Of a DNA stretch of 54,491 nt, positions 3,972-50,406 are shown in pieces. The position numbers were made by a program, and so were the translations under genes. The notes under the pieces are model-generated. The model worked only from the letters and a program-made list of their open reading frames with translations. It had not been told where the DNA came from and did not search any database. Within the stretch, counting starts at the first letter, position 1. Each line of letters starts with the position of its first letter. Source of the stretch: Candidatus Rifleibacteriota bacterium (GTDB lineage Bacteria; Muiribacteriota; Ozemobacteria; Ozemobacterales; Ozemobacteraceae); assembly GCA_012520995.1 (NCBI GenBank), contig JAAYNI010000008.1, positions 1-54,491 of the forward strand. Reading direction: 5' to 3'.

Positions 3972-6900
3972 TTATGCGCCAGCCTTTCTGGCTTTGAAAG
4001 CGTTTTTCAAGTTCTCGCTCAGTGCACAGCCATAGCCAGTCATTTTGGCTAAAAGTTGCCCGTTGGCATCAGCGATTTCGGCATCGGCTTCAGCAGCCAT
4101 AGGTTGGTTTCTTCTGGCTTTGATAGTGATGTTGACTGTGCCATTTTCAGGAATTTCGCCATATTGCTCATAGTTTTTCAGCGAAGAGGGGAGCGAGGGG
4201 AGTCCAAAGAGTTTGGTTGTCCATAAGATCATCAGCTGATATACAGAGTCTATGATTTGCGGAGAAGAATAGAAGCGTTCAAGGTTTTCTGCGGGGAACC
4301 AATCATGTGGAGTTGCGAAGCTTTTGACTTCAGCTTCTATGCCGTCTTGAGAATAGCTTTTTATAGAAGTTATTACACGCAAGGCTTCGCCATGGAAAAG
4401 GTCGTTTTCATAGGCTTCATTTATTGTATCGGGATAAGCTTGAGGATTTTCAAGCTGGAATGAAGGCTTTGCGTCAGTTTCTGCAGGCAGCACAGAAAGC
4501 ACTACTGTCAGAGATGCGTTGGGAGCTGGCGTGTTGTTTGAATCAGCGAAGATTTTGCATTCCACTTCGCTTGTTTTGCCCTTATTAACCAAAGTGCCTA
4601 GTTCGGTTCTTAGACCTTCTGTATTGCTTGTGAAGGTTATTCCTCTTAGAACCTTGAGGTCTTTGTAGCCTGCAAAGTGCAATTCAGGATAAGCTTTGCA
4701 GGCTGTTTGGACAGCTATTTCAGACAAAACAGCCATTGGAACCACATAGGCGCCGTTCATTATGTGCGACTTGATCCAAGGCTGTTTTGCCGGGTTTAAA
4801 GTCAGGTTTTTGTCAATTTTTTTTTTGACTGAATCCTGCTTGGGTGCTGTTTCCTTAGCTATTCCCATGATTCCTATTTCAACTTCTTCAGAATCTGGAT
4901 GGGAGAGTTCTATTATTGGGCATTGAGAGCCAGATTTAAGCGGGATCAGTCCTATGCCTTCGCTTAAAAAGACATTTCTAAGAGATGGTGTAACCATACC
5001 GCCGTCCCAAGGACCCCAGTTGAATGAGAGGATTCTGCAGCCCGAGCGTATAACTTTGAGCTTTTGAGCTATCTTGTTCATAGCTTCGTTAGCCATAGAG
5101 TAATCTACTTGGCCTTTTCTGCCGTGTCTTGCAGAGAAGGATGAGAAGAGTATGATGGTCTTGAGGTTTTCTTTTATGAGTGCTTTCAGAACGTTTGAAA
5201 GACCTGTCAGTTTGGTGTCCATAACATCATTGATTTGATCAATGGTTTTATCAACGATCAGTTTGTCTCTGAGAACTCCTGAACCATATACTAAGCCTGC
5301 TATATGTCCAAGAGAATGGGAGGCTTCAATAACGGCTCTTTCAACATCGTTAGAATCCCTCACGTCTACGGATTTGTACATCACCTTTACGCCTGTCTGA
5401 GCTATGCGATTAAGAGTCTGCATAACTTCTCTATTTGAAAGAATTTTGGCATAGGCTTTGTTCAGATCCTTGGGTGAAATGTTCTCTGAAACATTTTTAA
5501 GTATCGCGGCCTTAAGCTCTTTTTCGCCTGTTATGTTCTTGGACCAGTCAGGTTCTTCTTCAAGCTCAGTGCGTCCTGCCACTAACACATTAACTTTGTA
5601 TTTTTCAGCGAGCGCTATTGTGGTTTCAGCTGTTACACCTTTGGCACCGCCGAAGCTGATGATAGTGTCGCCTTCTTGGAATAGGGCAGGGGGATTCGGG
5701 TTTGCTTCGAGGCTTTGCTCAACTTCTTGAATCACAATTCTGCCTTCTTCGGAAAGACCTATCTCTATGTCTTTTGTGTCATTTATCAATTCATCTGCAA
5801 GTAATGAAGCTGCGACTTTCAGATCTCTGAGCCTGTTGTCAAGATCGATAGCTTTCGTGGTTACATTTTCCCACTCTAGATTGGCAGTTTTAACTATGCC
5901 AGCCATCCCGCCTTGTATAGGATCGATTGACTTGGGCATGGCTTTGAGTCCGAAGTATCCGTCCATTCTGGAAACAGTTGCAAGGAGTCCGTCACGCTTG
6001 ATTAGGTTGTCCGCTGAGGATTTTACGGCAAGCAGAACATCTTTGAGCCACTGTTCGGAAGATTCCTGCCAGAGGTTGAGAGGAGCTTTCTGCGGAGGAG
6101 ATGCTATTACAACTAGAGCTTTCATTTCAGGGGAAAACTCTTTTTGTTTAATTTCTTCAAGTGATTTAATTTCACTGTTTATTCCAAGGTCTGAGAGGCA
6201 TTCGGCCAATGCGTTTGCCAGTTCAGGATTATCATTGCTTATGCAAACTAGATCGCCTCTTTTGAGGAGAGAAGGGCCTTTAGCTTCGCAAGGTGCAGGC
6301 ACAGGCGTGATCAGAGTTCTTCTAAGTTCAAACTCTTCTTGCTCTGTTTCAGCTTGCAAGGCTGCGGGAGCTTCAGTTGCTTGAGGAGCTGGAGTTGCAG
6401 CTGGAGAACCGTTGAGATACTCCAGTATCTGAGCTATGGTCATGAGCTTTCCAAGTTCATCAGGCTGTATTACAGGCAAATTAGGCATTTGCTCTTGAAC
6501 AGCTGACATAATCTCAACCTTTTTGATTGAGTCTATGCCCAAGTCTGCTTCCATATCCATGTCTGGTTGGAGCATATCTATAGGATAGCCGGTTTTTTCA
6601 CTTATAATCTGCATCACGGAAGCGTTGACTTCATTGTTGTCAGAAGCAGTGGCTGGCTGAGCAGCAGGCGCTTGGGTGCCAGCAGGAGCTTGGGTGCCAG
6701 CAGGAGTCAGGTGCTCCAGGATTTGTCCGATTGTGTTGAGCTTCCCGAGTTCATCAGGCTGTATTACAGGTAAATTGGGCATTTGCTCTTGAACAGCAGA
6801 CATTATCTCAACTTTTTTGATTGAGTCTATTCCGAGATCTGCTTCCATATCCATGTCGAGTTGGAGCATTTCTATGGGATAGCCTGTTTTTTCGCTGACT

Positions 6901-9900
6901 ATCTTAAGAAGGGAATTGCGAGTATCTGTCTTGGGTGCTGATTTGGGTGTGGCAGTTGCTTTAACAGCAGGCTTTTGGGGAGCGGGAGCGGCAGCTTTGG
7001 GTGCGACTGCCGGAGCAGGCGCTTTTGGAGTTGCAGGGACTTGCGGTGCTGCTGAGGCAGCTGGAGCAGTATAGGCAGGCACAACATGAGCTTGAGGTTG
7101 AACAGGCTGTGTGAAAGCGGCGGGTGCGGCTTGCTGTACAGGCTGTTGCCAAGTTTGTTGCGGTGCCTGAGCAAATGGCAGAGTCGGAGTACTCTGATAT
7201 TGAGGATGGCTTATCTGCGGCATAGGCATTTGTTGCCCGGTCATCATAGCCATAAGTGTTTGCTGGGCTTGCATTTGAGTTTCTAAAAATCTTTTATGCA
7301 ATTCTGCTGTTTGAAGCTGCATTTTTTGCAGAGCAAGAATTGTTTCGTTTGATTGATTGTTAATCATTTGAGTTCTTTCCTCGGTTTTTGCAGGCATCAC
7401 AGTTTGTGTTGCGGCTGCAGGTGCTGGCGTTGGCACATATACTTTTTTTTCTACAACTTTTTCGACCACTTTTTCGACTACTTCGGTTTTTACCTGATCC
7501 GCAGGAACAAGTTTCGGTCTGGCTGGGGCTCCTGAGATGTTTTTTAAGTGATTGCGAAGAGCGGGCGATTTGTAGTTTGCTCCGTCAAGTTTGAATGTCA
7601 GCTTGGGTGCTTTCTTGTTAGCATCGGCTTCCAAGACGGCTTCTAAGTTGTTCCATTTGGCTATGTCTATCTGATAACCCATAGCTGTCAATTTGCTGAG
7701 CATGAAAGCAAAGTCGTGCATTGATGAGCGTTTGCCCTTTGAACTGTCTGAGGTGACAACATTGCAGTCAGCGGCTGCAGAAATATGTTTGAGCAGACCC
7801 GAGAGAACAGAGCCCGGACCTACTTCAACGAAAGTCTTAACACCGTCTTGAACGGCTGCCGTTACTATTTCTACAAATCTGACTGGATTTGCAAGCTGAT
7901 TGCCCAATAATTCAAGAGTTTCTTTATCTTCTTTTGGATAGGCTTGAGCAGTAGTGTTAGCATAGACTGTCTTTTGAGGGGCTTTTATATCAATTTCTTT
8001 CAAAAACTCAGTGAAAGGTTTTGCCGCATCTGCTATGAGAGAGCTGTGGAAAGCTCCTGCTACCTGCAGTTTCGTTGATCTTATTTTTCGTTCTTTTAGA
8101 GCTGCAGCTGCTTTGTCTACAGCTTCTTCGGTTCCTGACAAAACGACCTGTCTGTCTGAGTTGTCATTGGCTATAATAATATCTATTTTTTCTTCATCCA
8201 GAACAGCCTGAACTTTTGCTTTATCAGCCATGGCTGCGAGCATTCCGCCTTTGCCCTTGGCTTGAGTTTTCATTAGAAATCCGCGTTTCTGAGAGATCTT
8301 GTAGAGAGCTTCTTCGCTGAAAGCGCCTGCTGCATAGAGAGCGGGCAGTTCACCGTATGAGTGTCCTGCGAAGCAGTCGGCTTCAAGACCGAATGAACGC
8401 AGTGCCTTGTATATGCCGGCAGAGGCGGTGCCTATTGCGGGCTGAGCTACGTCTGTTTCTGTAAGTTTTTGAGCAGCTTCTGCATCCAAAGCTTCGTCAT
8501 ACTGAGGTTTGGGGAACATGTAGTCATTCAGAAGTTTCTGATCGTCTCCTGTGAGTCCAAGGGCATCGTTGGCTGTTACAACTGACTCGAATGATTCCGG
8601 GAAGGCAGTGAGGATTTCTTTGCACATTGCAGGATATTGAGAACCCTGTCCCGGGAATAGAACGCAGAGAGGTTTTGCCATATCGCCTTCGCAGAAAGCT
8701 GCTTTGCCAGGTATTTCTAATGTTGGCGCATAAGAATTATTAATTTTTTCAAGTATTTGTTCAACTGCTTCTTGGAAGTCGGCATTGTCTTGGGCAGTCA
8801 GAGAAACTTTATATGTGTCTTTACAATTGAAATATTTGCAAGATTTCGCAGCTTGAACAGCGAAATTTGTTGGATTTGTATCTTTGACGGCATTTTCGAG
8901 CTTGAGTTTGAGCGAGTTTAAATCATTGTCTGAATAAGCAAAGATTGCCGGAGCGTCTGAATAGTCGGCTTCTTTCTTATTAGAATCGGCTTCAGAAAGA
9001 ACCGTATGGAAATTGCTGCCGCCGAAGCCCATGGAACTGACTGCCGCATAGCGAGTCTGATTGTTTTCAGTTATCCACGGTCTTATTTCATTCGGCAGGT
9101 AGAAGGGTGTGTCTTCCTTTAAAAACGGATCGGCAGGTTTGGAAATCTTAATGGTCGGAGGAATAACTTTGTGATAAAGAGCCAGAGCTGCTTTCATCAT
9201 GCTTGCTGCACCAGCGGCTGCTTTTGTGTGTCCGATCTGAGATTTGACTGAACCTATAGCGCAGTTTCTGGGTTTAACGTTTTTATAAACATCGACAAGA
9301 GCTTCAACTTCAGCTAAGTCGCCTGCACCAGTGCCAGTGCCGTGAGCTTCAATTAGAGTTACGGCTTCAGGGGATATTTGAGCTTCTTCATAGGCTCTGA
9401 TAAGAGCTTTCTTTTGTCCGTCGGCTGCTGGCGCATATATAGCTTTGCCTTTGCCGTCACTGGAAGCGCCCAGTCCGCGAATTACCGCATATATTCTGTC
9501 TCCGTCTCTTTCAGCTTCGGAAAGGCGCTTCAGGACAAACATGCCTATGCCTTCGCCAAGTATGGTGCCATCGTTGTCGTTGCTGAAAGGTCTGGCATGC
9601 CCTGTGGGAGAAAGAGCGGGCGTTTTGCAGAAGCACATATACATAAAGATGTCGTTGAAAGTGTCAACCCCGCCTGTTATAGCCAAGTCGCTTTTACCCA
9701 TCTGGAGTTCCATGATAGCTGTATTTATAGCTCCAAGACTGCTTGCGCATGCCGCGTCTATAACGCAGTTAGTGCCGCCAAGATCAAGGCGGTTGGCTAT
9801 TCTGCCGGCAGCAACATTGCCCAAAAGACCAGGGAAGGAGTTTTCCTGCCATTTAATGAAGGAATCTCCTATGTTGTCAACAACTTCGTCAGCTATATCT

Positions 9901-10382
9901 TCTGGAATCCCTGAGTGGATCATGGCTTTTCGCCAAACAGGGTGGGCGAGTCTGCCGCCAAGAGGTATAACAAGTTCCAAGGTGCCTGTGAGACCCAGTA
10001 TGACGCTTACGTTGTCTCTGTTGAATTCGCGGTCTGGGGTGTATCCGGCATCGTATAAGGCGCCGCTCGCTACAACCAAAGAGAGAAGCTGCGAAGTGTC
10101 TATGGAATCCAGATCTGAAGGAGCTATTCCCCATTCTGCCGGATTAAAGTCGACAGGGTCTAAAAAGCCGCCGTTAGTGGTATAAACCTTATCCGGAGCT
10201 TTTTTGTCGGGCGAGAAAAAGTCTTCGGTATTCCAGTGAGTATCTGCCGGGACTTCTCTTATAGTGTCGACTTTGCCTTTGATATTAGCCCAATAATCAT
10301 TCAAAGATTGGGCTTTAGGGAAAAGGCAGCTCATGCCTATAATTGCTATGGGTTCCATATGTTTCTTTGTGTTTTCTTGCAT
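3972..10382 (-). CDS. pfaA: PfaA-like megasynthase KS-MAT-ACP-ACP-KR-DH
   Basis: This 2136-residue protein has recognisable domains in order. KS covers about 10-460 with C212 in DAACASS. A malonyl-type acyltransferase covers about 575-895 with S675 in GHSYGE. A Pro/Ala/Gln-rich linker covers about 930-1150. Two tandem acyl carrier domains have phosphopantetheine serines S1187 and S1285 in GIDSIKK. A ketoreductase covers about 1475-1800 with Y1761 in VDYSMAN. A C-terminal hot-dog dehydratase has H1873 in an HxxxGxxxxP motif. The order matches PfaA/Pfa2 of PUFA synthases, which build chains iteratively from malonyl-CoA. Two carriers is fewer than the four to nine usual in marine and myxobacterial enzymes. 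It lies 30 nt after the phosphopantetheinyl transferase gene that presumably activates it. A second ATG at codon 9 is a possible alternative start. The product may be a PUFA or another secondary lipid. Confidence 0.93.
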   Translation of the reverse strand: MQENTKKHMEPIAIIGMSCLFPKAQSLNDYWANIKGKVDTIREVPADTHWNTEDFFSPDKKAPDKVYTTNGGFLDPVDFNPAEWGIAPSDLDSIDTSQLLSLVVASGALYDAGYTPDREFNRDNVSVILGLTGTLELVIPLGGRLAHPVWRKAMIHSGIPEDIADEVVDNIGDSFIKWQENSFPGLLGNVAAGRIANRLDLGGTNCVIDAACASSLGAINTAIMELQMGKSDLAITGGVDTFNDIFMYMCFCKTPALSPTGHARPFSNDNDGTILGEGIGMFVLKRLSEAERDGDRIYAVIRGLGASSDGKGKAIYAPAADGQKKALIRAYEEAQISPEAVTLIEAHGTGTGAGDLAEVEALVDVYKNVKPRNCAIGSVKSQIGHTKAAAGAASMMKAALALYHKVIPPTIKISKPADPFLKEDTPFYLPNEIRPWITENNQTRYAAVSSMGFGGSNFHTVLSEADSNKKEADYSDAPAIFAYSDNDLNSLKLKLENAVKDTNPTNFAVQAAKSCKYFNCKDTYKVSLTAQDNADFQEAVEQILEKINNSYAPTLEIPGKAAFCEGDMAKPLCVLFPGQGSQYPAMCKEILTAFPESFESVVTANDALGLTGDDQKLLNDYMFPKPQYDEALDAEAAQKLTETDVAQPAIGTASAGIYKALRSFGLEADCFAGHSYGELPALYAAGAFSEEALYKISQKRGFLMKTQAKGKGGMLAAMADKAKVQAVLDEEKIDIIIANDNSDRQVVLSGTEEAVDKAAAALKERKIRSTKLQVAGAFHSSLIADAAKPFTEFLKEIDIKAPQKTVYANTTAQAYPKEDKETLELLGNQLANPVRFVEIVTAAVQDGVKTFVEVGPGSVLSGLLKHISAAADCNVVTSDSSKGKRSSMHDFAFMLSKLTAMGYQIDIAKWNNLEAVLEADANKKAPKLTFKLDGANYKSPALRNHLKNISGAPARPKLVPADQVKTEVVEKVVEKVVEKKVYVPTPAPAAATQTVMPAKTEERTQMINNQSNETILALQKMQLQTAELHKRFLETQMQAQQTLMAMMTGQQMPMPQISHPQYQSTPTLPFAQAPQQTWQQPVQQAAPAAFTQPVQPQAHVVPAYTAPAASAAPQVPATPKAPAPAVAPKAAAPAPQKPAVKATATPKSAPKTDTRNSLLKIVSEKTGYPIEMLQLDMDMEADLGIDSIKKVEIMSAVQEQMPNLPVIQPDELGKLNTIGQILEHLTPAGTQAPAGTQAPAAQPATASDNNEVNASVMQIISEKTGYPIDMLQPDMDMEADLGIDSIKKVEIMSAVQEQMPNLPVIQPDELGKLMTIAQILEYLNGSPAATPAPQATEAPAALQAETEQEEFELRRTLITPVPAPCEAKGPSLLKRGDLVCISNDNPELANALAECLSDLGINSEIKSLEEIKQKEFSPEMKALVVIASPPQKAPLNLWQESSEQWLKDVLLAVKSSADNLIKRDGLLATVSRMDGYFGLKAMPKSIDPIQGGMAGIVKTANLEWENVTTKAIDLDNRLRDLKVAASLLADELINDTKDIEIGLSEEGRIVIQEVEQSLEANPNPPALFQEGDTIISFGGAKGVTAETTIALAEKYKVNVLVAGRTELEEEPDWSKNITGEKELKAAILKNVSENISPKDLNKAYAKILSNREVMQTLNRIAQTGVKVMYKSVDVRDSNDVERAVIEASHSLGHIAGLVYGSGVLRDKLIVDKTIDQINDVMDTKLTGLSNVLKALIKENLKTIILFSSFSARHGRKGQVDYSMANEAMNKIAQKLKVIRSGCRILSFNWGPWDGGMVTPSLRNVFLSEGIGLIPLKSGSQCPIIELSHPDSEEVEIGIMGIAKETAPKQDSVKKKIDKNLTLNPAKQPWIKSHIMNGAYVVPMAVLSEIAVQTACKAYPELHFAGYKDLKVLRGITFTSNTEGLRTELGTLVNKGKTSEVECKIFADSNNTPAPNASLTVVLSVLPAETDAKPSFQLENPQAYPDTINEAYENDLFHGEALRVITSIKSYSQDGIEAEVKSFATPHDWFPAENLERFYSSPQIIDSVYQLMILWTTKLFGLPSLPSSLKNYEQYGEIPENGTVNITIKARRNQPMAAEADAEIADANGQLLAKMTGYGCALSENLKNAFKARKAGA

Positions 10383-10412
10383 GTTGTTACGTCTCTCTGG
10401 GTGTTTGTATTT

Positions 10413-11129
10413 TTAAAGTGAATCTGTATTAAAAAGATTAAGCTCGAAAAGGAAATCCGGAGCTTTAAGAGCGACAGTTGCTATGTGGGTGTCTGAGGGC
10501 ATAAAAGTGCGGGAGGTCCAAGCTGCATAGTTCGGTGAATTAATAACCGTTGAAGCAAACTTGCAACCGTAGGTTTCATTGCCGGTGTGCTCTGTGGGCG
10601 TTAGCGAGAGTTCAAGACTGTTCAAGCCGCCAAGGCCTTCGCCTGTTCCTTTAAGAATGGCTTCTTTTGCTGTCCATGTGGAAAAGAAGGCTTCAGTTGT
10701 ATCGCCTGAATCGTCTATGCTTTTTCTTTCTGCTTCGGTGAAATATTTTTTTATAATCAGCGATTTTTCAATGTTGCGGGCTGAATTCTCAAGGTCTATT
10801 CCTGTCGGAACTGGAGCTACAGCCAAGGCTATTTTTCGCTGAGCGTGTGAAATATTAAAGTGCAACTCGGGGAAATCGGGCAAATATGGCTTGCCGTTCT
10901 CGGCCAAAGCTATATTTATCTCATCAGGCTTCTGAGCAGTTTTTTGAGCTAACACCTTACGAGTCATGGCTCTTGCGCAAAGAAAAACGTCAGCCGTTTG
11001 AGGATGAGTCATCTTTGCAAGCCTTTTTTGCTCTTCATCAGAGAGATAACGTGAAGCAAGCCTTTCCCGCTTTTCGGCAGAGAAAGGCTTTGCGTCAGTT
11101 ACCCAAATTTCCGCCAAGTGCTTTTGCAT
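10413..11129 (-). CDS. Sfp-type 4'-phosphopantetheinyl transferase (PfaE-like)
   Basis: The 238-residue protein shows the Sfp/AcpT superfamily signatures: FNISHA, then GIDLE (Mg/CoA site), then WTAKEAILKGTGEG. It transfers the phosphopantetheine arm of CoA to carrier-domain serines. Lying between the reductase and the two-ACP megasynthase, it is the probable activator of S1187 and S1285 there. I chose the ATG at 11129, one base after the TAA of the reductase gene. A TTG at 11159 would add ten residues inside the upstream gene and seems less likely. PUFA clusters often keep this enzyme (pfaE) at a distance, so an embedded copy is notable but not unique. Confidence 0.9.
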   Translation of the reverse strand: MQKHLAEIWVTDAKPFSAEKRERLASRYLSDEEQKRLAKMTHPQTADVFLCARAMTRKVLAQKTAQKPDEINIALAENGKPYLPDFPELHFNISHAQRKIALAVAPVPTGIDLENSARNIEKSLIIKKYFTEAERKSIDDSGDTTEAFFSTWTAKEAILKGTGEGLGGLNSLELSLTPTEHTGNETYGCKFASTVINSPNYAAWTSRTFMPSDTHIATVALKAPDFLFELNLFNTDSL

Positions 11130-11130
11130 G

Positions 11131-12795
11131 TTACTGTGCAAAGCCTTTGAGCTGGTCAAGGGGCATGCCCTTGATGTTGGTAAATGAAAGCGGCAATTGA
11201 ACGCCTTGATATTTCAGCTGGTTGATTCTGTTAAGCACAGTGCCGCCGTAAATTAGGTTGAGCGCTACGTCCACAACCTTGCGGTTTTTGGGTTCTTCAA
11301 AAATGGAGTCTTTTGCCCATTCGTTGAAGGCACCAATGGCAGGACCTGTCCAGATCTGGAAGTCCAGCTTGCGGCTTTCGTCGCCTTTAGTTGCCCAGCG
11401 GGAAGAAAGCCCGAGATACCATCTGAAGACCAGAGCCATTTTGTGATGGGGGTCTTTTTCGGCTCTCTCGACCTGTTTGGGATCTCTCACTTCAAAGAAT
11501 TTCTTTGTGCCTTCCCAGATGTTTTCCATGGTGTCGTGGAAGAATTGCTCTTCTATTTGTTTCTTTTCGGCTGCCGGAATTTCTTCTATGGAGTTGTATT
11601 TTTTGTACACTTCATAGAGTTTTTTGCCTCTCATGGCGAACATAGTGCCACGTTTGAGAACCTGGACTGTTACGCCCATTTCAAACATGTCGCCGGCAGG
11701 AGCCATGGCTACATCGGCTTGTCCTGCGTTTGCCAAGAGTTGTCTGGCCAAGTCTGAAGTGCCTGATTCAATACAGGCTTGGTTTACCGTGCCTACCACT
11801 ACATAGGCGCCGCCCATATCAAAGCTGGAAAGCAGTGAAGCGGGAGTGCTTACGCCGCCGCCGAAGCCCACGCGCAATGGCATGTCGTAGTTGTATTTTT
11901 CTTGCATTCTGTTTCGCAGGCTGAACATTGATGGATGAAGGGAAATTGCAGGCCTGTTGTCTGTATGGCCGCCTGAGTCTGCCTCAGAGGTGACATCTTG
12001 AGCTACGGGAATTCTCTTTGCCATCTGAGCTTGTTCGGCAGTGATGGCTCCTTGTTCCAGAAGCTTGTTTACAATTTTTTCAGGCGCAGGCGAGAAGAAT
12101 TTTTCTGCAAGCTCGACTCTGCTCACTTTTGCAATAACCTTGTTAGGGGTTACTATTTTGCCGTCTTTTTCGTGAATGCCGGTTAATCTGTATCGGACTA
12201 TAGGAGCAGTGATGTTCATGAAAGCGGAAGCTTCGACTTTGTCGAGGCCGTGAGCCAGATACATGTCTATGAGCTTGTCTTCCAGTGTGCTGTCAGAGGG
12301 GCTGTGAATGAGGTTGAAGCCGAAGGGGATTTTCTTGGGTCTTGAATTGAGGTCTCTTAAAGTCTGTTCGACTTTTTCGGGGGGATCTCCGGCTGAACCG
12401 ATAAAAGCCATCATCCCGGCTTCGCCCAAAGCGACGGCTATTTCAGGCGAGCTGATGCCGTGAGCCATTGAGCCGCCAAGATAGGGATATTTAATGCCAT
12501 AATCTTTACAAAAACTCTTGTCTCCGAAATCTTCCATAGAGCTTTCAGGTGTGAAAGCGGCGAGTTCCATGGCTGAGTCAGGCAAATTTTTGTCCGAATA
12601 ATGCAGATTGCCTGAGGTAGTTGCTGCGAGTTTGCCGTTTTTGTCTTTAACTATAAAAACGGGCTGATTTATTTTATATATACAATTTTTAACTTGTTCT
12701 TCGCTATAAACCAGACTCTTAGGATCGCCTGTCCACCAGGCCTTTGTTGCTTTTTGCCTGTCCAGTTTTATGGTTTCGTTGACCGAAGAATTCAT
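11131..12795 (-). CDS. pfaD: PfaD-family trans-acting enoyl reductase (FMN)
   Basis: The 554-residue protein reads as the PfaD/nitropropane-dioxygenase-like TIM barrel family. It has an N-terminal PfaD-specific region, AGMMAFIGSAGDP near the first third, FGFNLIHSP, the glycine-rich flavin loop GFGGG, and the characteristic VTVQVLKRGTMFAMR stretch. In PUFA synthesis this enzyme reduces the enoyl thioester during selected extension rounds. An AAGGAG ribosome site lies 9 nt before ATG 12795. It is the first synthase gene, and gene order reductase, KS-MAT-ACP-KR-DH, KS-CLF-AT follows the myxobacterial type. It sits 78 nt downstream of the DJ-1-like gene. That gap is AT-rich and contains TATAAA-like words, so a private promoter is possible but not convincing. 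Confidence 0.92.
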   Translation of the reverse strand: MNSSVNETIKLDRQKATKAWWTGDPKSLVYSEEQVKNCIYKINQPVFIVKDKNGKLAATTSGNLHYSDKNLPDSAMELAAFTPESSMEDFGDKSFCKDYGIKYPYLGGSMAHGISSPEIAVALGEAGMMAFIGSAGDPPEKVEQTLRDLNSRPKKIPFGFNLIHSPSDSTLEDKLIDMYLAHGLDKVEASAFMNITAPIVRYRLTGIHEKDGKIVTPNKVIAKVSRVELAEKFFSPAPEKIVNKLLEQGAITAEQAQMAKRIPVAQDVTSEADSGGHTDNRPAISLHPSMFSLRNRMQEKYNYDMPLRVGFGGGVSTPASLLSSFDMGGAYVVVGTVNQACIESGTSDLARQLLANAGQADVAMAPAGDMFEMGVTVQVLKRGTMFAMRGKKLYEVYKKYNSIEEIPAAEKKQIEEQFFHDTMENIWEGTKKFFEVRDPKQVERAEKDPHHKMALVFRWYLGLSSRWATKGDESRKLDFQIWTGPAIGAFNEWAKDSIFEEPKNRKVVDVALNLIYGGTVLNRINQLKYQGVQLPLSFTNIKGMPLDQLKGFAQ

Positions 12796-39159: not shown

Positions 39160-41019
39160 TTGAACTTCTTGGATTCAAACTTTTACAATAACATAAAGCA
39201 GCTTGGCAAAAATGCTGATATCATCTACTCAGCTTTGCAGACCCGTGATTTGCCGCAAAGCTATAAGGCATTGGAGAAACTCCCGCGTCTGAACCTCTAT
39301 GAAGGAAAGCCTGTAATGACCACAGTTTTTTGCGGTCCTTCAGGAGCAGGAAAAAGCACGCTCTTTAAATTGCTTACAGGACTCGATGTGCCTGCAGGCG
39401 GAGCTGTCAGACCTATGTCATATGCCTCTATGGCTGCCGTGCCTGAACAGATTGCAGATAATGTCTCTCTTGCGGAATTGTTCCCTGGGTTTGAGTTGAA
39501 AAAGCTTCAGTCACCTGATGAACTCAAAAAGCCAGATCTTGCTGATGAAGATGAAAAGGCCTCTGATACTTCCAACATTCTCTTTTATGACAGCTATAAA
39601 AGTGAGATGAAAAAGGCTGGTAACTGGCTTTGTTTAGTTGATGTGCCTGATTTTAATACCATAGAAAAGAGCAACTGGAAAAAAGCCGAACTAATGATAG
39701 AACGTGCGGATGCAGTTGTTTTTACAGTTTTTCAAGAAGCATACGCGAACAAGACGAGCTTTGATATACTCAGCAAAGTTTTGGCTCTTTCCGGCAGCAC
39801 TATTATACTCTTGACCAAACTTGAGAGCGATGACAATGAGCAGTCTGCGCTCGAAATAAGAGACGATCTCATCAAAAATATTGAGAATAATGCTGCTTTT
39901 CGCAGAAAAAGAGCTGATGGCAGAAGTCTCGCAGAATTTTTCAAAAAATCGCCTTTTTATTATAGCTGCAGATTGAGAGGAAAGACTGCAACACAGCCTG
40001 CTGAACGTTTGAAACTTGAGCATATTTTGCCTATAGAAAAAGCGCAGGATTCTTTCCAAGATGTTTTATATGGACAAGAAGCTTTAGAGACCATAAAAAG
40101 CAAAATACGCGAAACAGTAAAGATTGCAACTGACAATATAACTGATATTTGCGAGCAGGCTTCCGATGAAAGCAAATATTTAACTGAAGAGATAAATCGG
40201 GTGAATAACCAGCTGAAAAAGGCTGCAGAAAACATAGCCGGCGAAGAGTTCCCTATTTTCTTGCTTCTTTCTAAGGTTAGAGAAATGCTGGAAAAGAACA
40301 GACCGCCGTTTCTTGCAAGAGTTTTCAAGCCTGTAAATATTGTTTCTTCAGGTTTGTCTTCTCTTATAAATAACGTGAAAGAAAAGATTAACTTACGCGA
40401 TCCTGATAAGTTCAAGTCTTCTGTGCATAAAAGAGATGACTTGGAGAAAGACCGCCTCAAGAGCGAAGTGGAAAAGCTTGTAGATCTATGGCGTTCCGAT
40501 TCGGACAAGTATCCTGATATTGACGCGGAGAAGGCTAGGGGAGTTTCAGACGAAATATTGGATGCTATAGACTTGCCGCCAGTTGATGAAGCTTGGGAAG
40601 AAGAAGTCAATAAAGCCTTGGAAAAGTGGTTTGAATCAGGTGACAAGAATCTTTGGCTCTGGCTCAATGTATTTAACGATTTGGCCATATTCTTGGGCAG
40701 TGTTGTTGTTATAGGCGACATTTTTATTGACGGCGGCATAGGCACGCTTGGCATAGCTGCCGTAGTAGGTGGAAGCAGTGCTCTTGGCGGTTTTTTGACC
40801 GCTATTTTCAACAACATGGGTTTGAGTAACGAAATAAGACTGGCTCACAATGAATGGAAAAAATATAGAGCCAAAGCTTATTTAGAGCATTTGAAAAAGA
40901 ACCTTGCAGAGCCTTTGCTTTTCAAAGACAAGCTTAAGGCTCAAGAAAAACTTGCCGGCAATTTGATTGAAGAGACCTTGGCTGCTCTTGAAGAAGTGAA
41001 AGAAGGTTTGAGCATATGA
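39160..41019 (+). CDS. Dynamin-like membrane-associated GTPase (first of a pair)
   Basis: The 619-residue protein has G1 GPSGAGKST (59-67), a G3 position reading DVPDF (161-165) in place of DxxG, and G4 TKLE (219-222). A long helical, charged region (about 320-480) is followed by two hydrophobic segments near 500-555 (LAIFLGSVVVIGDIF, then a Gly-rich stretch) and a final helical tail. This is the layout of bacterial dynamin-like or YfjP-like GTPases, with a hydrophobic paddle-like region. The TTG start is supported by AAAGGTGA 6 nt upstream. It overlaps the next gene by four bases (ATGA). Bacterial dynamin-like proteins often occur as tandem pairs acting together on membranes. The specific role here is unknown. 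Confidence 0.75.
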   Translation: MNFLDSNFYNNIKQLGKNADIIYSALQTRDLPQSYKALEKLPRLNLYEGKPVMTTVFCGPSGAGKSTLFKLLTGLDVPAGGAVRPMSYASMAAVPEQIADNVSLAELFPGFELKKLQSPDELKKPDLADEDEKASDTSNILFYDSYKSEMKKAGNWLCLVDVPDFNTIEKSNWKKAELMIERADAVVFTVFQEAYANKTSFDILSKVLALSGSTIILLTKLESDDNEQSALEIRDDLIKNIENNAAFRRKRADGRSLAEFFKKSPFYYSCRLRGKTATQPAERLKLEHILPIEKAQDSFQDVLYGQEALETIKSKIRETVKIATDNITDICEQASDESKYLTEEINRVNNQLKKAAENIAGEEFPIFLLLSKVREMLEKNRPPFLARVFKPVNIVSSGLSSLINNVKEKINLRDPDKFKSSVHKRDDLEKDRLKSEVEKLVDLWRSDSDKYPDIDAEKARGVSDEILDAIDLPPVDEAWEEEVNKALEKWFESGDKNLWLWLNVFNDLAIFLGSVVVIGDIFIDGGIGTLGIAAVVGGSSALGGFLTAIFNNMGLSNEIRLAHNEWKKYRAKAYLEHLKKNLAEPLLFKDKLKAQEKLAGNLIEETLAALEEVKEGLSI

Positions 41020-42623
41020 ATCTGGATTTGTCATTTGAATTGATTCGCAGCAAATCGCAAAAGATAGCGGAACTTTGTAAACCCTTGGAGTCCAACGACT
41101 CTTTGTTCGCTTTGAGAAGGGGCTTGAATGAGGTTTCTCAAATCAGCGAGCTGGAAGAGAGACCGCTTATAATAACCTTGATGGGCGGCAGCGGAGTAGG
41201 CAAGTCTTATATTTTCAGCCGGCTTTGCGGATGCGAAAACGCAAGCCCTTCTTCTCCCTCAGTCAGAGGTTTTACCAAAGAGCTTTATATAGCTGCGAGC
41301 GAGAAAGACAGAAAGCTTCTGACTTTTAAGGCTGATAAGGCAAATTGGCTGCCAGGGCTGATTCCGAATTTGGTTCTCATAGATACCCCTGACTTGGACA
41401 GCATACATGAAAACAACTTGGCTTTGGCTGATGAAACAATCGCTAATTCAGATATTCTGGTTGCTGTTACAACGCCCGATAAAAGGGCGGATTTTATAAT
41501 TCACCGCAAAATATTGGATTGGTCTGCGAGAAAAAGATGGTTTTTTATTATGAACAAGGCCGATACTGCCGAGGATACCACGCCTGATGCTCTCAGAGCT
41601 GATTTGATAGGGCGCCTCAAAGACATGGGCTTCCAAATTAATGATTCCTCAAAAAATGCGGTGTTTGTTTTCAGTGCTAATGATGAAAAGTCGGAAGAGT
41701 TCAAAAAGTTCTCGGAAATGCTTTTCACAGGCAGGAATGTTTTACAGAATAGAATTCTTCAGCAGGAAGACATCTTAAGAAAGTATTGGCATGTCTTGAA
41801 TGCTCTTGAGCTTCAAGAAAAGATTCAAGAGCTGTATGTTTCTTTGAAAGATCGCAAAGCTAAACTTTCCGAGAAAACGAATCAAATAGAAGATCGCATA
41901 GTTTCTTCATCTTATTTTTCTTCAGTTTTATCTGATAATCTGCGCAAGGCAGTGTATAAAGAACTTGCCGACAAGACCTTGGGGTTTGTGTACCCGTATT
42001 TTGCTTTTTTGCGCTTAATGTCAGGCAAAGAAAGTCTGACTGCCCTGGATTTTATTTATTCCAAGAGTTTGACCGATTCTGCGGACATTTCAGAATGCTA
42101 TGCGGACGAAAGACGTTATCTTGAAGACAAAAGCTTGCCTGTTTCGAGCACAGGAGGCAAGGAGGTTTCCAGACAGCGTATTTCCGCCAATGTTTTCAAC
42201 GATTCTATTGCTGAGTATGCAAAAGAGATTTCACAGCGGAAGCTTTTTTCTTTCAATATTTTTGTAGCTAATCTTTTACCATTCCTGCTTTTGCTCTGGT
42301 CGCTTTATGTTCTTTTCTCTTCTTGGATTGAGAAGACTTGGCTTTCCAGCGATTTTATTTATCACACGGCTCTTTTATTGATTCTATCGACTATTCCCGG
42401 TTATTTGCGCTTGAGTAGTTACATCAAGAATAGAATCAAGGAATTTGAACCGCCTGAGACTACTATAAAGCTTGCTATGCCGGATCTTGACAGAAATATA
42501 GAGTCTTTGGAAGCCGTGGTTCGCGAGAGCTCTGAGCTTAATAAGAAGGTTAAAGAGACTCTGAATGAGATTCGAACAAAGGTGCCGCAGGGTTCTTCCG
42601 GTCTCTCTTTGCCTGCTGATTGA
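41016..42623 (+). CDS. Dynamin-like membrane GTPase (second of a pair)
   Basis: The 535-residue protein has G1 GGSGVGKS (57-64), G3 position DTPDLD (123-128) with Asp instead of the usual Gly, and G4 NKAD (180-183). A helical region follows. Two clear membrane helices (about 414-437 and 447-466) are then followed by a helical C-terminus with a heptad-like Glu/Lys pattern. It differs from its partner in size and sequence but shares the layout, so the two probably form a hetero-oligomer at the membrane. It is coupled to the first GTPase by an ATGA overlap. Another possibility is a ribosome-binding-type GTPase of the Era/EngA superclass with an added membrane anchor. Confidence 0.78.
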   Translation: MNLDLSFELIRSKSQKIAELCKPLESNDSLFALRRGLNEVSQISELEERPLIITLMGGSGVGKSYIFSRLCGCENASPSSPSVRGFTKELYIAASEKDRKLLTFKADKANWLPGLIPNLVLIDTPDLDSIHENNLALADETIANSDILVAVTTPDKRADFIIHRKILDWSARKRWFFIMNKADTAEDTTPDALRADLIGRLKDMGFQINDSSKNAVFVFSANDEKSEEFKKFSEMLFTGRNVLQNRILQQEDILRKYWHVLNALELQEKIQELYVSLKDRKAKLSEKTNQIEDRIVSSSYFSSVLSDNLRKAVYKELADKTLGFVYPYFAFLRLMSGKESLTALDFIYSKSLTDSADISECYADERRYLEDKSLPVSSTGGKEVSRQRISANVFNDSIAEYAKEISQRKLFSFNIFVANLLPFLLLLWSLYVLFSSWIEKTWLSSDFIYHTALLLILSTIPGYLRLSSYIKNRIKEFEPPETTIKLAMPDLDRNIESLEAVVRESSELNKKVKETLNEIRTKVPQGSSGLSLPAD

Positions 42624-43421: not shown

Positions 43422-43817
43422 ATGGAAACACCAAGCAAAAGAAAAGAGTTTTTATTTAAAAAAGAAAGTTATCTTATTCGTGCTGCTGTTTACGAAGTTT
43501 ATCGCGAAATGGGTTGCGGATTTCTGGAACCAGTATATCAAGAGTGTTTGGAGAAAGAGTTTCGTAGGCAAAACATTCCTTTTGTAGCTCAGCCTGAACT
43601 TGAGTTGTTCTATAAACAGGAAAAGCTTCAACACATATATAAGCCGGATTTGATATGTTATGACAATATTATTATTGAGCTGAAGGCGGTTAAAGAAACG
43701 TCTGATGAGTATCGGGCACAGTTGCGTAATTATTTAAAGGCGACAGGGCTTAAGCTTGGATTCTTGGTAAACTTTGGACATTTTCCTAAAGCAACTATAG
43801 AAAGAATTGCTTATTAA
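43422..43817 (+). CDS. GxxExxY family protein
   Basis: The 131-residue protein carries the defining GCGFLEPVY motif (G-x-x-E-x-x-Y) and a PD-(D/E)xK-like core, KPDLICYDNIIIELKAVK, that suggests a nuclease-type fold. It ends with LGFLVNFG. The family is widespread, often in multiple copies per genome, and its role is unknown. It is enclosed by inverted 29-nt repeats, and no good ribosome site precedes the ATG. It separates the thioredoxin-like gene from the acidic membrane-protein gene and looks like an insertion. Signs of domestication or loss of function are absent. Confidence 0.85.
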   Translation: METPSKRKEFLFKKESYLIRAAVYEVYREMGCGFLEPVYQECLEKEFRRQNIPFVAQPELELFYKQEKLQHIYKPDLICYDNIIIELKAVKETSDEYRAQLRNYLKATGLKLGFLVNFGHFPKATIERIAY

Positions 43818-47447: not shown

Positions 47448-47730
47448 AAAAATTGAATAAAATCTTGGCTATGCGATGAACTAATATTTTACTCAGGTCT
47501 CAGATTCAAAGATGTATTCAGCAAACATTGCTCAACAGCAGATTAGTGAGCTATTTGGCCAGTATCTTAAAGCATTTGTTGGTTTCGGTTTTGTAGCAAA
47601 CGCCGTAAGTGAAAATATTTATATTTTTACTGGGTCGCTGATTAAGAGACAGAGAGAGCAAATTTATTTGGTCGTTCTGTTTCTTAATCAGAGACAGAGT
47701 AACATTAGATTCGATGAAAGATAATGTTAT
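47448..47730 (+). repeat. Structured repeat module A, copy 2
   Basis: The body matches 38460-38660 almost throughout. The late stem CTGATTAAGAGACAG (47638-47652) pairs with CTGTTTCTTAATCAG (47677-47691) with one wobble. A near-palindrome AGTGAAAATAT...ATATTTTTACT precedes it, and TAACATT...AATGTTA closes the element. The 70-codon frame in this copy is not conserved in copy 1. Confidence 0.7.
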
Positions 47731-47920
47731 GTTCATCTGCGTAATCTGCGGATATATTGTCCTAAAAAGGTATTTCGGCAGTTCTTCCGTGTATTCCGTG
47801 TGGTCTGTGGTAGATAAAGGTTTTGGAGTTTTTTCGGTTCTTTTTCGTACCTTTCGTGTTTTTCGTGGTTAGAAATGTCCTCGGTTTTTTCTGCTGGTTT
47901 TGCTGTTTTAGCTGCGTGTC

Positions 47921-47975: not shown

Positions 47976-48563
47976 ATGCAAATATTGAAAGACTATTTTG
48001 AAGAAAATCCTGTGATTACAAACAAAGCTGCCGAAAAGTTGGGAGTAGGGCGGCATGTGCTTGCTGCTTTGGCGAAAGAAGGCAAAATCGAAAGAATAAG
48101 ACCTGGGGTTTATCAAAAGGCGGACGAGATTATTGACGATTTCGTTTTGATAGCATCAAACAGCGACAGGATAATTTTTTCACATCAAACAGCACTTTAT
48201 TTGCATGATTTGTCAGACCGTGTACCCAATATTTTTCATATTTCCGTGCCTCAGGGCTACAATGCGACTCATATCAAAAAAAGATACGAAAACTTGCAAA
48301 TACGTTATGTGAAAAAAGAACTCCATGCTGTAGGCAAAACTCAAATCAGAACGCCCTTAGGCAATCTTGTCCAAGTCTATGATCCGGAAAGGTGCATTTG
48401 CGATATTATCTCGGACAGAGAAAAAATTGATAAGCAAATCTTCACGGAAGCTATTGCCAAGTATTTTAAGCTCAAAGCCAAGGACTTGAGACGGCTCATC
48501 AAATACAGCAGACAATTCGGCATAGAAGATGAAGCAAGACGCTACATAGAGGTGCTTTCATGA
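47976..48563 (+). CDS. AbiEi-family antitoxin (type IV TA) with winged helix
   Basis: The 195-residue protein has an N-terminal winged-helix region (NPVITNKAAEKLGVGRHVLAALAKEGKIERIRPGVYQ), followed by the AbiEi-type domain (FSHQTALYLHDLSDRVPNIFHISVPQGYN, then LVQVYDPERCICDII). AbiEi proteins repress their own promoter and counter the AbiEii nucleotidyltransferase toxin. The 4-nt ATGA overlap with the toxin gene and the palindrome over the promoter support that assignment. AGGATCGG precedes the ATG. Confidence 0.85.
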   Translation: MQILKDYFEENPVITNKAAEKLGVGRHVLAALAKEGKIERIRPGVYQKADEIIDDFVLIASNSDRIIFSHQTALYLHDLSDRVPNIFHISVPQGYNATHIKKRYENLQIRYVKKELHAVGKTQIRTPLGNLVQVYDPERCICDIISDREKIDKQIFTEAIAKYFKLKAKDLRRLIKYSRQFGIEDEARRYIEVLS

Positions 48564-49399
48564 TTTCAATAGAAAGCATAAAAGGAAAAATAAGAAATCT
48601 GGCTAAAGAGAGCAATTTGAGCACTCAAGAACTTTTGCAAATGTATTTTTTTGAGAGGCTGCTTGAAAGAATTTCCAAATCAAAATACAAGATGAATTTT
48701 GTCGTTAAAGGCGGACTTTTGATATCAAGTATTATTGGGGTTCAAAACAGAACTACCATGGATATGGATGCATCCGTTAAGGGGATAGCTTTAAAAGAAG
48801 AAAAAATCAAAGAAGCTGTGGATGAAATTCTAAGTATAGAAATTGCTGACGGTATAACATTTGAAGCAACTGGCCTGGAATATATCAGAGAAGCTGATGA
48901 ATATGATAATTTCAGAGTTTCTTTGCTTGCTAAGACAGGAAAAACCAAAAATCCTATGAAAATGGATATCACAACTGGTGATCCGATCACGCCAAAAGCT
49001 GTTCTCTATAAATATCCCTGCATTTTTCATGAAGAGGATATAGAAGTTTTGGCTTATCCCATTGAAACCATTATTGCTGAGAAATATGAAACTGTAATCA
49101 GAAGAAATATTGCAACGACCAGAATGAGAGATTTTTACGATATCTATGTACTTTTCAAGGCAAAGGAAAAAGAAATAAGTTTTGAAATCCTCAAGACAGC
49201 AATCATTCAAACTGCAACGAAGCGGGGAAGCTTGGAGATTATAGAAAAGCCTGAAGAAATATTAAAAGATATCAGAGAGTACAGCCATCTCAAGGATTTA
49301 TGGGAAGTGTATGCCAAAGAAAACAGATACGTCGGAGACTTGCACTTTGAAGAGGTTCTTGAAGTCTTAGTCTCACTTGCTGCGAAAATTAGCATTTAG
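48560..49399 (+). CDS. AbiEii/AbiGii nucleotidyltransferase toxin
   Basis: The 279-residue protein has the family features: VVKGGLLISS (residues 48-57) and the metal-binding TTMDMDASVKG with D68 and D70. The C-terminal half has YPIETIIAEKYE and RMRDFYDIYVL, conserved in AbiEii-like enzymes. These toxins transfer nucleotides to tRNA or other targets and arrest growth; phage defence by abortive infection is known for some. It is translationally coupled to the antitoxin. Active-site residues look intact, so the toxin is probably functional. Confidence 0.87.
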   Translation: MISIESIKGKIRNLAKESNLSTQELLQMYFFERLLERISKSKYKMNFVVKGGLLISSIIGVQNRTTMDMDASVKGIALKEEKIKEAVDEILSIEIADGITFEATGLEYIREADEYDNFRVSLLAKTGKTKNPMKMDITTGDPITPKAVLYKYPCIFHEEDIEVLAYPIETIIAEKYETVIRRNIATTRMRDFYDIYVLFKAKEKEISFEILKTAIIQTATKRGSLEIIEKPEEILKDIREYSHLKDLWEVYAKENRYVGDLHFEEVLEVLVSLAAKISI

Positions 49400-49827: not shown

Positions 49828-49989
49828 TTTACATTCAGCTTATGTTTTTGAGATTTCTGTTCGGCTGTTTTGAGGATAAAAATTGAATAAAATCTTATAG
49901 AATGCAATGAAATAAGATTTTACTCAGGTTTCATATTCAAAGAGGTGCTCAGCGAAATATGATTAATTAGGAGTTAGAGGTTTCTTGAA

Positions 49990-50124: not shown

Positions 50125-50406
50125 TTAGAAGAATAATGTTTTATTTCGTTTGGTTCTTTATCGGTCCTCCATCTGTGACCATCTGCGTAATCTGCGGATA
50201 TATTGTCCTAAAAAGGTATTTCGGCAGTTCTTCCGTGTATTCTGTGTGTTCTGTGGTTTAATAAATGTTTTTGGAGTTTTTTCGGTTCTTTTTCGTGTAT
50301 TTCTTGCTTTCAAAAAGGTTTTGTTTCAGGCTTGCTCAAATTTCCGGTATCAGGTTAAACTAATCATAAGACAGATATAAACAAACTTGAGAGGACAAAC
50401 AACAAC

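Follow-up and report, generated by a model that had tools for sequence, protein, structure and literature searches.

Bacterial dynamin-like proteins are usually encoded side by side in pairs (PMC6104087), and their G3 motif is defined as DxxG (PMC5827413). In Streptomyces the pair forms an operon, dynA-dynB (PMC6428758), in which DynB, with its two transmembrane segments, is the partner of DynA (PMC8748795). A different kind of operon, with genes for the tubulin-like FtsZl1, a vWA protein and a GTPase, was predicted by Makarova and Koonin in 2010 to constitute a membrane-remodelling system, the GTPase of which is of a diverged family typically not associated with membranes in bacteria (PMC2875224). 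A search of the literature found no tested mechanism for this predicted system since 2010, and no paper that links FtsZl1 or Tubulin_2 to a dynamin-like pair. In eukaryotes, members of the dynamin and tubulin families work together; we know of no bacterial operon in which genes for a tubulin-like protein and for a dynamin-like pair are combined.

The locus described here lies in a window of 54,491 bp, the whole stretch of DNA that was analysed, from a Candidatus Rifleibacteriota bacterium (contig JAAYNI010000008.1). Two genes on the plus strand, P1 (39160..41019; 619 aa, TTG start) and P2 (41016..42623; 535 aa), overlap by 4 bp (ATGA), and a likely ribosome-binding sequence, aaaggtga, precedes P1 (39146..39153). 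Both are recognised as open reading frames with orthologues, P1 also by the LeoBC profile and P2 through relatives that match the LeoA profile; Rfam gave no match in the pair or in the gap upstream of it. An alignment of 16 sequences shows residues G59, G64, K65, S66 and T67 of the P1 P-loop (G1, GPSGAGKS, 39334..39357) to be invariant, as are D161, P163 and D164 of its altered G3 motif DVPD (residues 161-164, 39640..39651), while G4 is degenerate (TKLE, 39814..39825). A hydrophobic, glycine-rich stretch near the P1 C-terminus (residues 509-550, 40684..40809) is a possible membrane paddle. The P-loop of P2 is GGSGVGKS (41184..41207), its altered G3 is DTPD (residues 123-126, 41382..41393; D123, P125, D126 and D128 invariant), and its G4 is intact (NKAD, 41553..41564; N180 and D183 invariant), such that P-loop, conserved Thr, Mg-binding Asp and NxxD are all retained. 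Two hydrophobic segments (residues 415-433 and 442-460, 42258..42395) form a predicted hairpin. The sequence-only reading of this DNA had described two large GTPases of these lengths overlapping by four bases, each with a hydrophobic C-terminal region and with aspartate in place of the G3 glycine, and all of this is borne out. The G3 change and the gene adjacency are kept in homologues, and both are therefore far beyond chance.

The altered G3 marks a family much wider than the window pair. Among 58 G domains compared, 47 from paired proteins of two phyla and 11 from other large GTPases of the same and other phyla, taken as canonical dynamin-like proteins, G3 is DxPD in all 47 of the former and D[TS]PG in all 11 of the latter. 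The two groups are split in a G-domain tree with support of 100/99; the deep branches within the paired family are left unordered by this tree. P1 and P2 thus belong to a real, conserved and uncharacterised subfamily of paired dynamin-like GTPases, as the sequence-only reading had suggested, with the amendment that the altered G3 is a mark of the subfamily and not a peculiarity of the window pair, since Actinomycetota members have DxPD too. The pair is also asymmetric in its guanine-specificity motif: G4 is intact in 24/24 P2 proteins (NxxD) versus only five of 23 P1 proteins (TxxD), and the window P1 is not among the five. This pattern suggests that P2 is the leading nucleotide binder. The invariant DxPD raises the question of how a GTPase of the dynamin type manages with no glycine at G3.

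Several lines of evidence indicate that P1 and P2 are likely to be dynamin-like. Both contain a G1 P-loop GTPase domain as in bacterial dynamin-like proteins, and both C-terminal halves are long and helical with hydrophobic segments, although AlphaFold models, built from distant sequences only, are of low confidence (pLDDT 53 and 45). Pfam Dynamin_N scores above its cut-off in the three relatives tested and below it for the window P1 and P2. Among PADLOC models, LeoBC matches 11 of 16 P1 family members, its match to the window P1 (E 3e-7) covering residues 309-581, the helical half, and LeoA matches 16 of 18 P2 family members, the window P2 having no PADLOC match. In several profile-profile comparisons canonical dynamin-like profiles align past the G domain. 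The best rows of a Foldseek search with the P2 model include mitofusin 1 and BDLP, none of them significant (E 5e-3). LeoA and LeoBC of enterotoxigenic E. coli are likewise bacterial dynamin-like proteins encoded in one operon; their matches here, LeoA to P2 members and LeoBC to P1 members, are weak and partial, and the gene neighbourhood of the window locus has no leoA-leoB-leoC operon and a different gene set. The canonical proteins BDLP1, CrfC and the DTPG members of the same phylum share the arrangement of G domain, helical region and hydrophobic tip, but keep DxxG at G3, and the DTPG members compared form a separate clade. None of the 47 paired proteins has the DxxG that defines bacterial dynamin-like proteins, and with DxPD in its place the pair is classed as a divergent subfamily that would work like a dynamin pair rather than as a standard member. 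That the proteins are instead TRAFAC GTPases of the Era/Der kind with a membrane anchor is extremely improbable: MMR_HSR1 scores are on a par with those of Dynamin_N on several members, but the long helical C-terminal halves, the position of the LeoBC match on P1 and the canonical dynamin-like profiles extending past the G domain all speak against it, and no curated ribosome-assembly model is reached. Scores for Era, Der, RsgA and YlqF fall far below the curated cut-offs, so that profiles of this type, which the sequence-only reading had named as a possible refutation, do not claim either protein. P1 also matches ABC transporters (35 bits with Pfam ABC_tran; EttA and other ABC proteins in the PDB), but only in the P-loop region, and this label was rejected.

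The pair is present in 21 of 24 sampled genomes of the window's family, Ozemobacteraceae, in two distantly related types that never occur in the same genome. The window type is found in 12 genomes, one of which has no more than a fragment of P2 where a contig ends, and its P1 and P2 orthologues are adjacent in most of these, lying on two contigs in G018. The sister type, whose proteins are only about 15-18% identical to those of the window, is found in nine. Neither type was found in G005 and G012, which are of one genus, or in G021 (75% complete). The same layout is seen in Nonomuraea (Actinomycetota), reached through the one useful match of a plasmid search, where tblastn shows DTPDID in a first protein of 897 aa and DLPDHD in a second of 540 aa, the two genes overlapping by 4 bp. 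A genome scan with the actinobacterial protein found 80 loci, all in Nonomuraea and related actinobacteria, and in 79 of them the two genes are present, each with its altered G3; the remaining locus starts at a contig edge. The second actinobacterial protein has a two-segment membrane hairpin. Profile-profile comparison joins the window, sister and actinobacterial groups through the G domain, and the window-type and sister-type P2 profiles are each other's best score. Pairing, the absence of which in relatives was to have counted against the sequence-only reading, is thus recurrent.

In the sister-type genomes the pair comes after genes for Tubulin_2 (PF13809, E 3e-55) and for a protein with a vWA domain, and before a gene for a large TPR protein. 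The order Tubulin_2-vWA-P1-P2-TPR is contiguous on one strand in four of these genomes, as shown by tblastn over the loci, and in one genome (G001) vWA and P1 overlap by 4 bp. Two more genomes have Tubulin_2-vWA-P1-P2 without the TPR gene and in another two the parts of the operon are divided between two contigs, such that the link to Tubulin_2 and vWA is seen in 8/9 sister-type genomes; the contig of the ninth holds the pair alone. Each of the eight window-type genomes checked has Tubulin_2-(vWA)-TPR with no pair in it, the pair being located elsewhere. In the window's own genome Tubulin_2 and TPR lie on another contig (C1:50670) without vWA, and the same search found no recognisable copy of the operon's vWA protein anywhere in that genome. 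A Tubulin_2 tree places the window-type genomes in a single clade (SH-aLRT 100) nested within the sister type (93), which fits a single event, the pair having either left the operon or been replaced; the G-domain tree leaves open whether the window-type pair descends from the operon pair. Tubulin_2, like the pair, is absent from G005 and G012, though these represent a single lineage. In other families of the phylum Tubulin_2 is found with no pair of this kind, and in family f8 and in Actinomycetota pairs are found outside Tubulin_2 operons. This tubulin-like link lay outside what the window's sequence could show, and the sequence-only reading was incomplete in this respect.

Length, domain layout and operon partners lead us to infer that PF13809 corresponds to FtsZl1. 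The operon resembles the predicted FtsZl1 system, which is widespread and uncharacterised, in having a tubulin-like gene beside vWA and GTPase genes, but differs in that the GTPase part is a tandem DxPD dynamin-like pair with membrane segments, and in that the pair stands outside the operon in the window's clade. Given the Tubulin_2-vWA-P1-P2-TPR order in relatives and the prediction for FtsZl1, we read the pair as the membrane-acting arm of the system, and consider it an even prospect that P1 and P2 are the membrane-deforming or tethering partner of Tubulin_2 (FtsZl1)-vWA-TPR in this family. In a plausible scenario, P1 and P2 would join in a heterodimer, with the P2 hairpin and the hydrophobic tip of P1 as its anchors. 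P2, with its two-helix membrane hairpin, would be the partner that binds GTP, and P1, with its degraded guanine-specificity motif and paddle-like tip, would probably be regulated through it. At G3, aspartate stands where a glycine would contact the gamma-phosphate, and this exchange may slow hydrolysis or gate it. Pairing of P1 with P2 would depend on GTP, and the pair would act on the membrane in cooperation with the tubulin-like filament, bending or tethering it at a site set by the Tubulin_2 scaffold and the vWA protein. The more specific proposal of a two-cytoskeleton membrane-remodelling machine, composed of a Tubulin_2 filament and a dedicated DxPD heterodimer of which one partner keeps guanine specificity, is advanced tentatively, at somewhat less than even likelihood. 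For the FtsZl1 system, the paired GTPases would be a concrete component acting on the membrane, with an asymmetry that can be put to the test.

Other membrane functions need to be weighed against this proposal. The pair could work with an ordinary FtsZ ring and stabilise the divisome in the manner of Streptomyces DynA/DynB, the link to Tubulin_2 being incidental, which we regard as rather unlikely. The actinobacterial DxPD pair has the same gene order, 4-bp overlap and two-segment hairpin in the second protein, and DynA (vnz_12110) and DynB (vnz_12105) are likewise an operon pair (PMC6428758) with two transmembrane segments in DynB, the partner of DynA (PMC8748795). However, these likenesses to DynA/DynB are of layout, and the known partner in Streptomyces is the FtsZ divisome, unlike the operon partner in this phylum, which is Tubulin_2 and not ftsZ. 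A general pair for membrane repair or envelope stress, of the kind proposed for Bacillus DynA and Campylobacter Cj-DLP1/2 and having no cytoskeletal partner, would account for the window-type pair standing alone by ribosomal and ECF genes, and is in keeping with the pairing of bacterial dynamin-like proteins as a rule (PMC6104087). We think it unlikely, as it leaves unexplained both the conserved place of the pair between vWA and TPR among sister-type genomes and the joint absence of the pair and Tubulin_2 in one genus.

The sequence-only reading had raised a role in phage defence and a linkage to defence islands; its description of heterotypic, membrane-associated dynamin-like proteins with altered G3 stands, whereas the defence role is not supported. 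Five window-type relatives carry the pair tail-to-tail with ecfT at the end of a ribosomal alpha/ecf block composed of secY, rpsK, rpsD, rpoA, rplQ, two ecfA-type ATPase genes and ecfT, and in the window the pair lies 3' of ecfT on the same strand, across a 972-bp gap. A tRNA scan of five relatives' pair loci found none. The locus is core-genome ground and not a defence island, a reading rejected in view of the distribution and neighbourhood of the pair. Two points favour an anti-phage module akin to the LeoABC of the PADLOC list: members of both protein families match its LeoA and LeoBC profiles, and an AbiEi/AbiEii pair lies 5 kb downstream in the window. We nonetheless judge such a module very unlikely: the match to LeoA and LeoBC, themselves plain dynamin-like proteins, reflects kinship of fold only; the pair is near-universal and vertically distributed in the family, with core genes adjoining it in relatives and the sister type in the Tubulin_2-vWA-TPR operon; and P2 is without a match in phage records, as the window P2 is in PADLOC. 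Viral scans found no relatives except for one P-loop-sized match.

Among various other features of the window, we note that the gap upstream of P1 (38200-39140) is a mosaic of dispersed repeats with 72 matches in the window's own genome, itself counted, including 47449-47832, 49868-49956 and 50149-50280. In six relatives (L058-L063) the contig ends about 0.1-1.2 kb upstream of P1, which suggests repeated sequence there. The AbiEi/AbiEii-type pair (47976-49399) has strong PADLOC matches and is flanked by the same dispersed repeats. A PDDEXK_3 (GxxExxY-type) protein (43422-43817, E 5e-39) is encoded two genes downstream of the P1-P2 pair. On the minus strand, the region 3972-12795 contains polyketide/PUFA-synthase-like genes, one for a protein of 2136 aa with the domains KS-AT-ACP-KR-DH and one for a PfaD-like protein. 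Elsewhere, in sister-type genomes, genes for canonical DTPG dynamin-like proteins with GEFNxGKS P-loops adjoin that of a protein of about 630 aa of the AAA type with GPPGVGKT (L250-L255), and the two apparently form a conserved two-gene unit.
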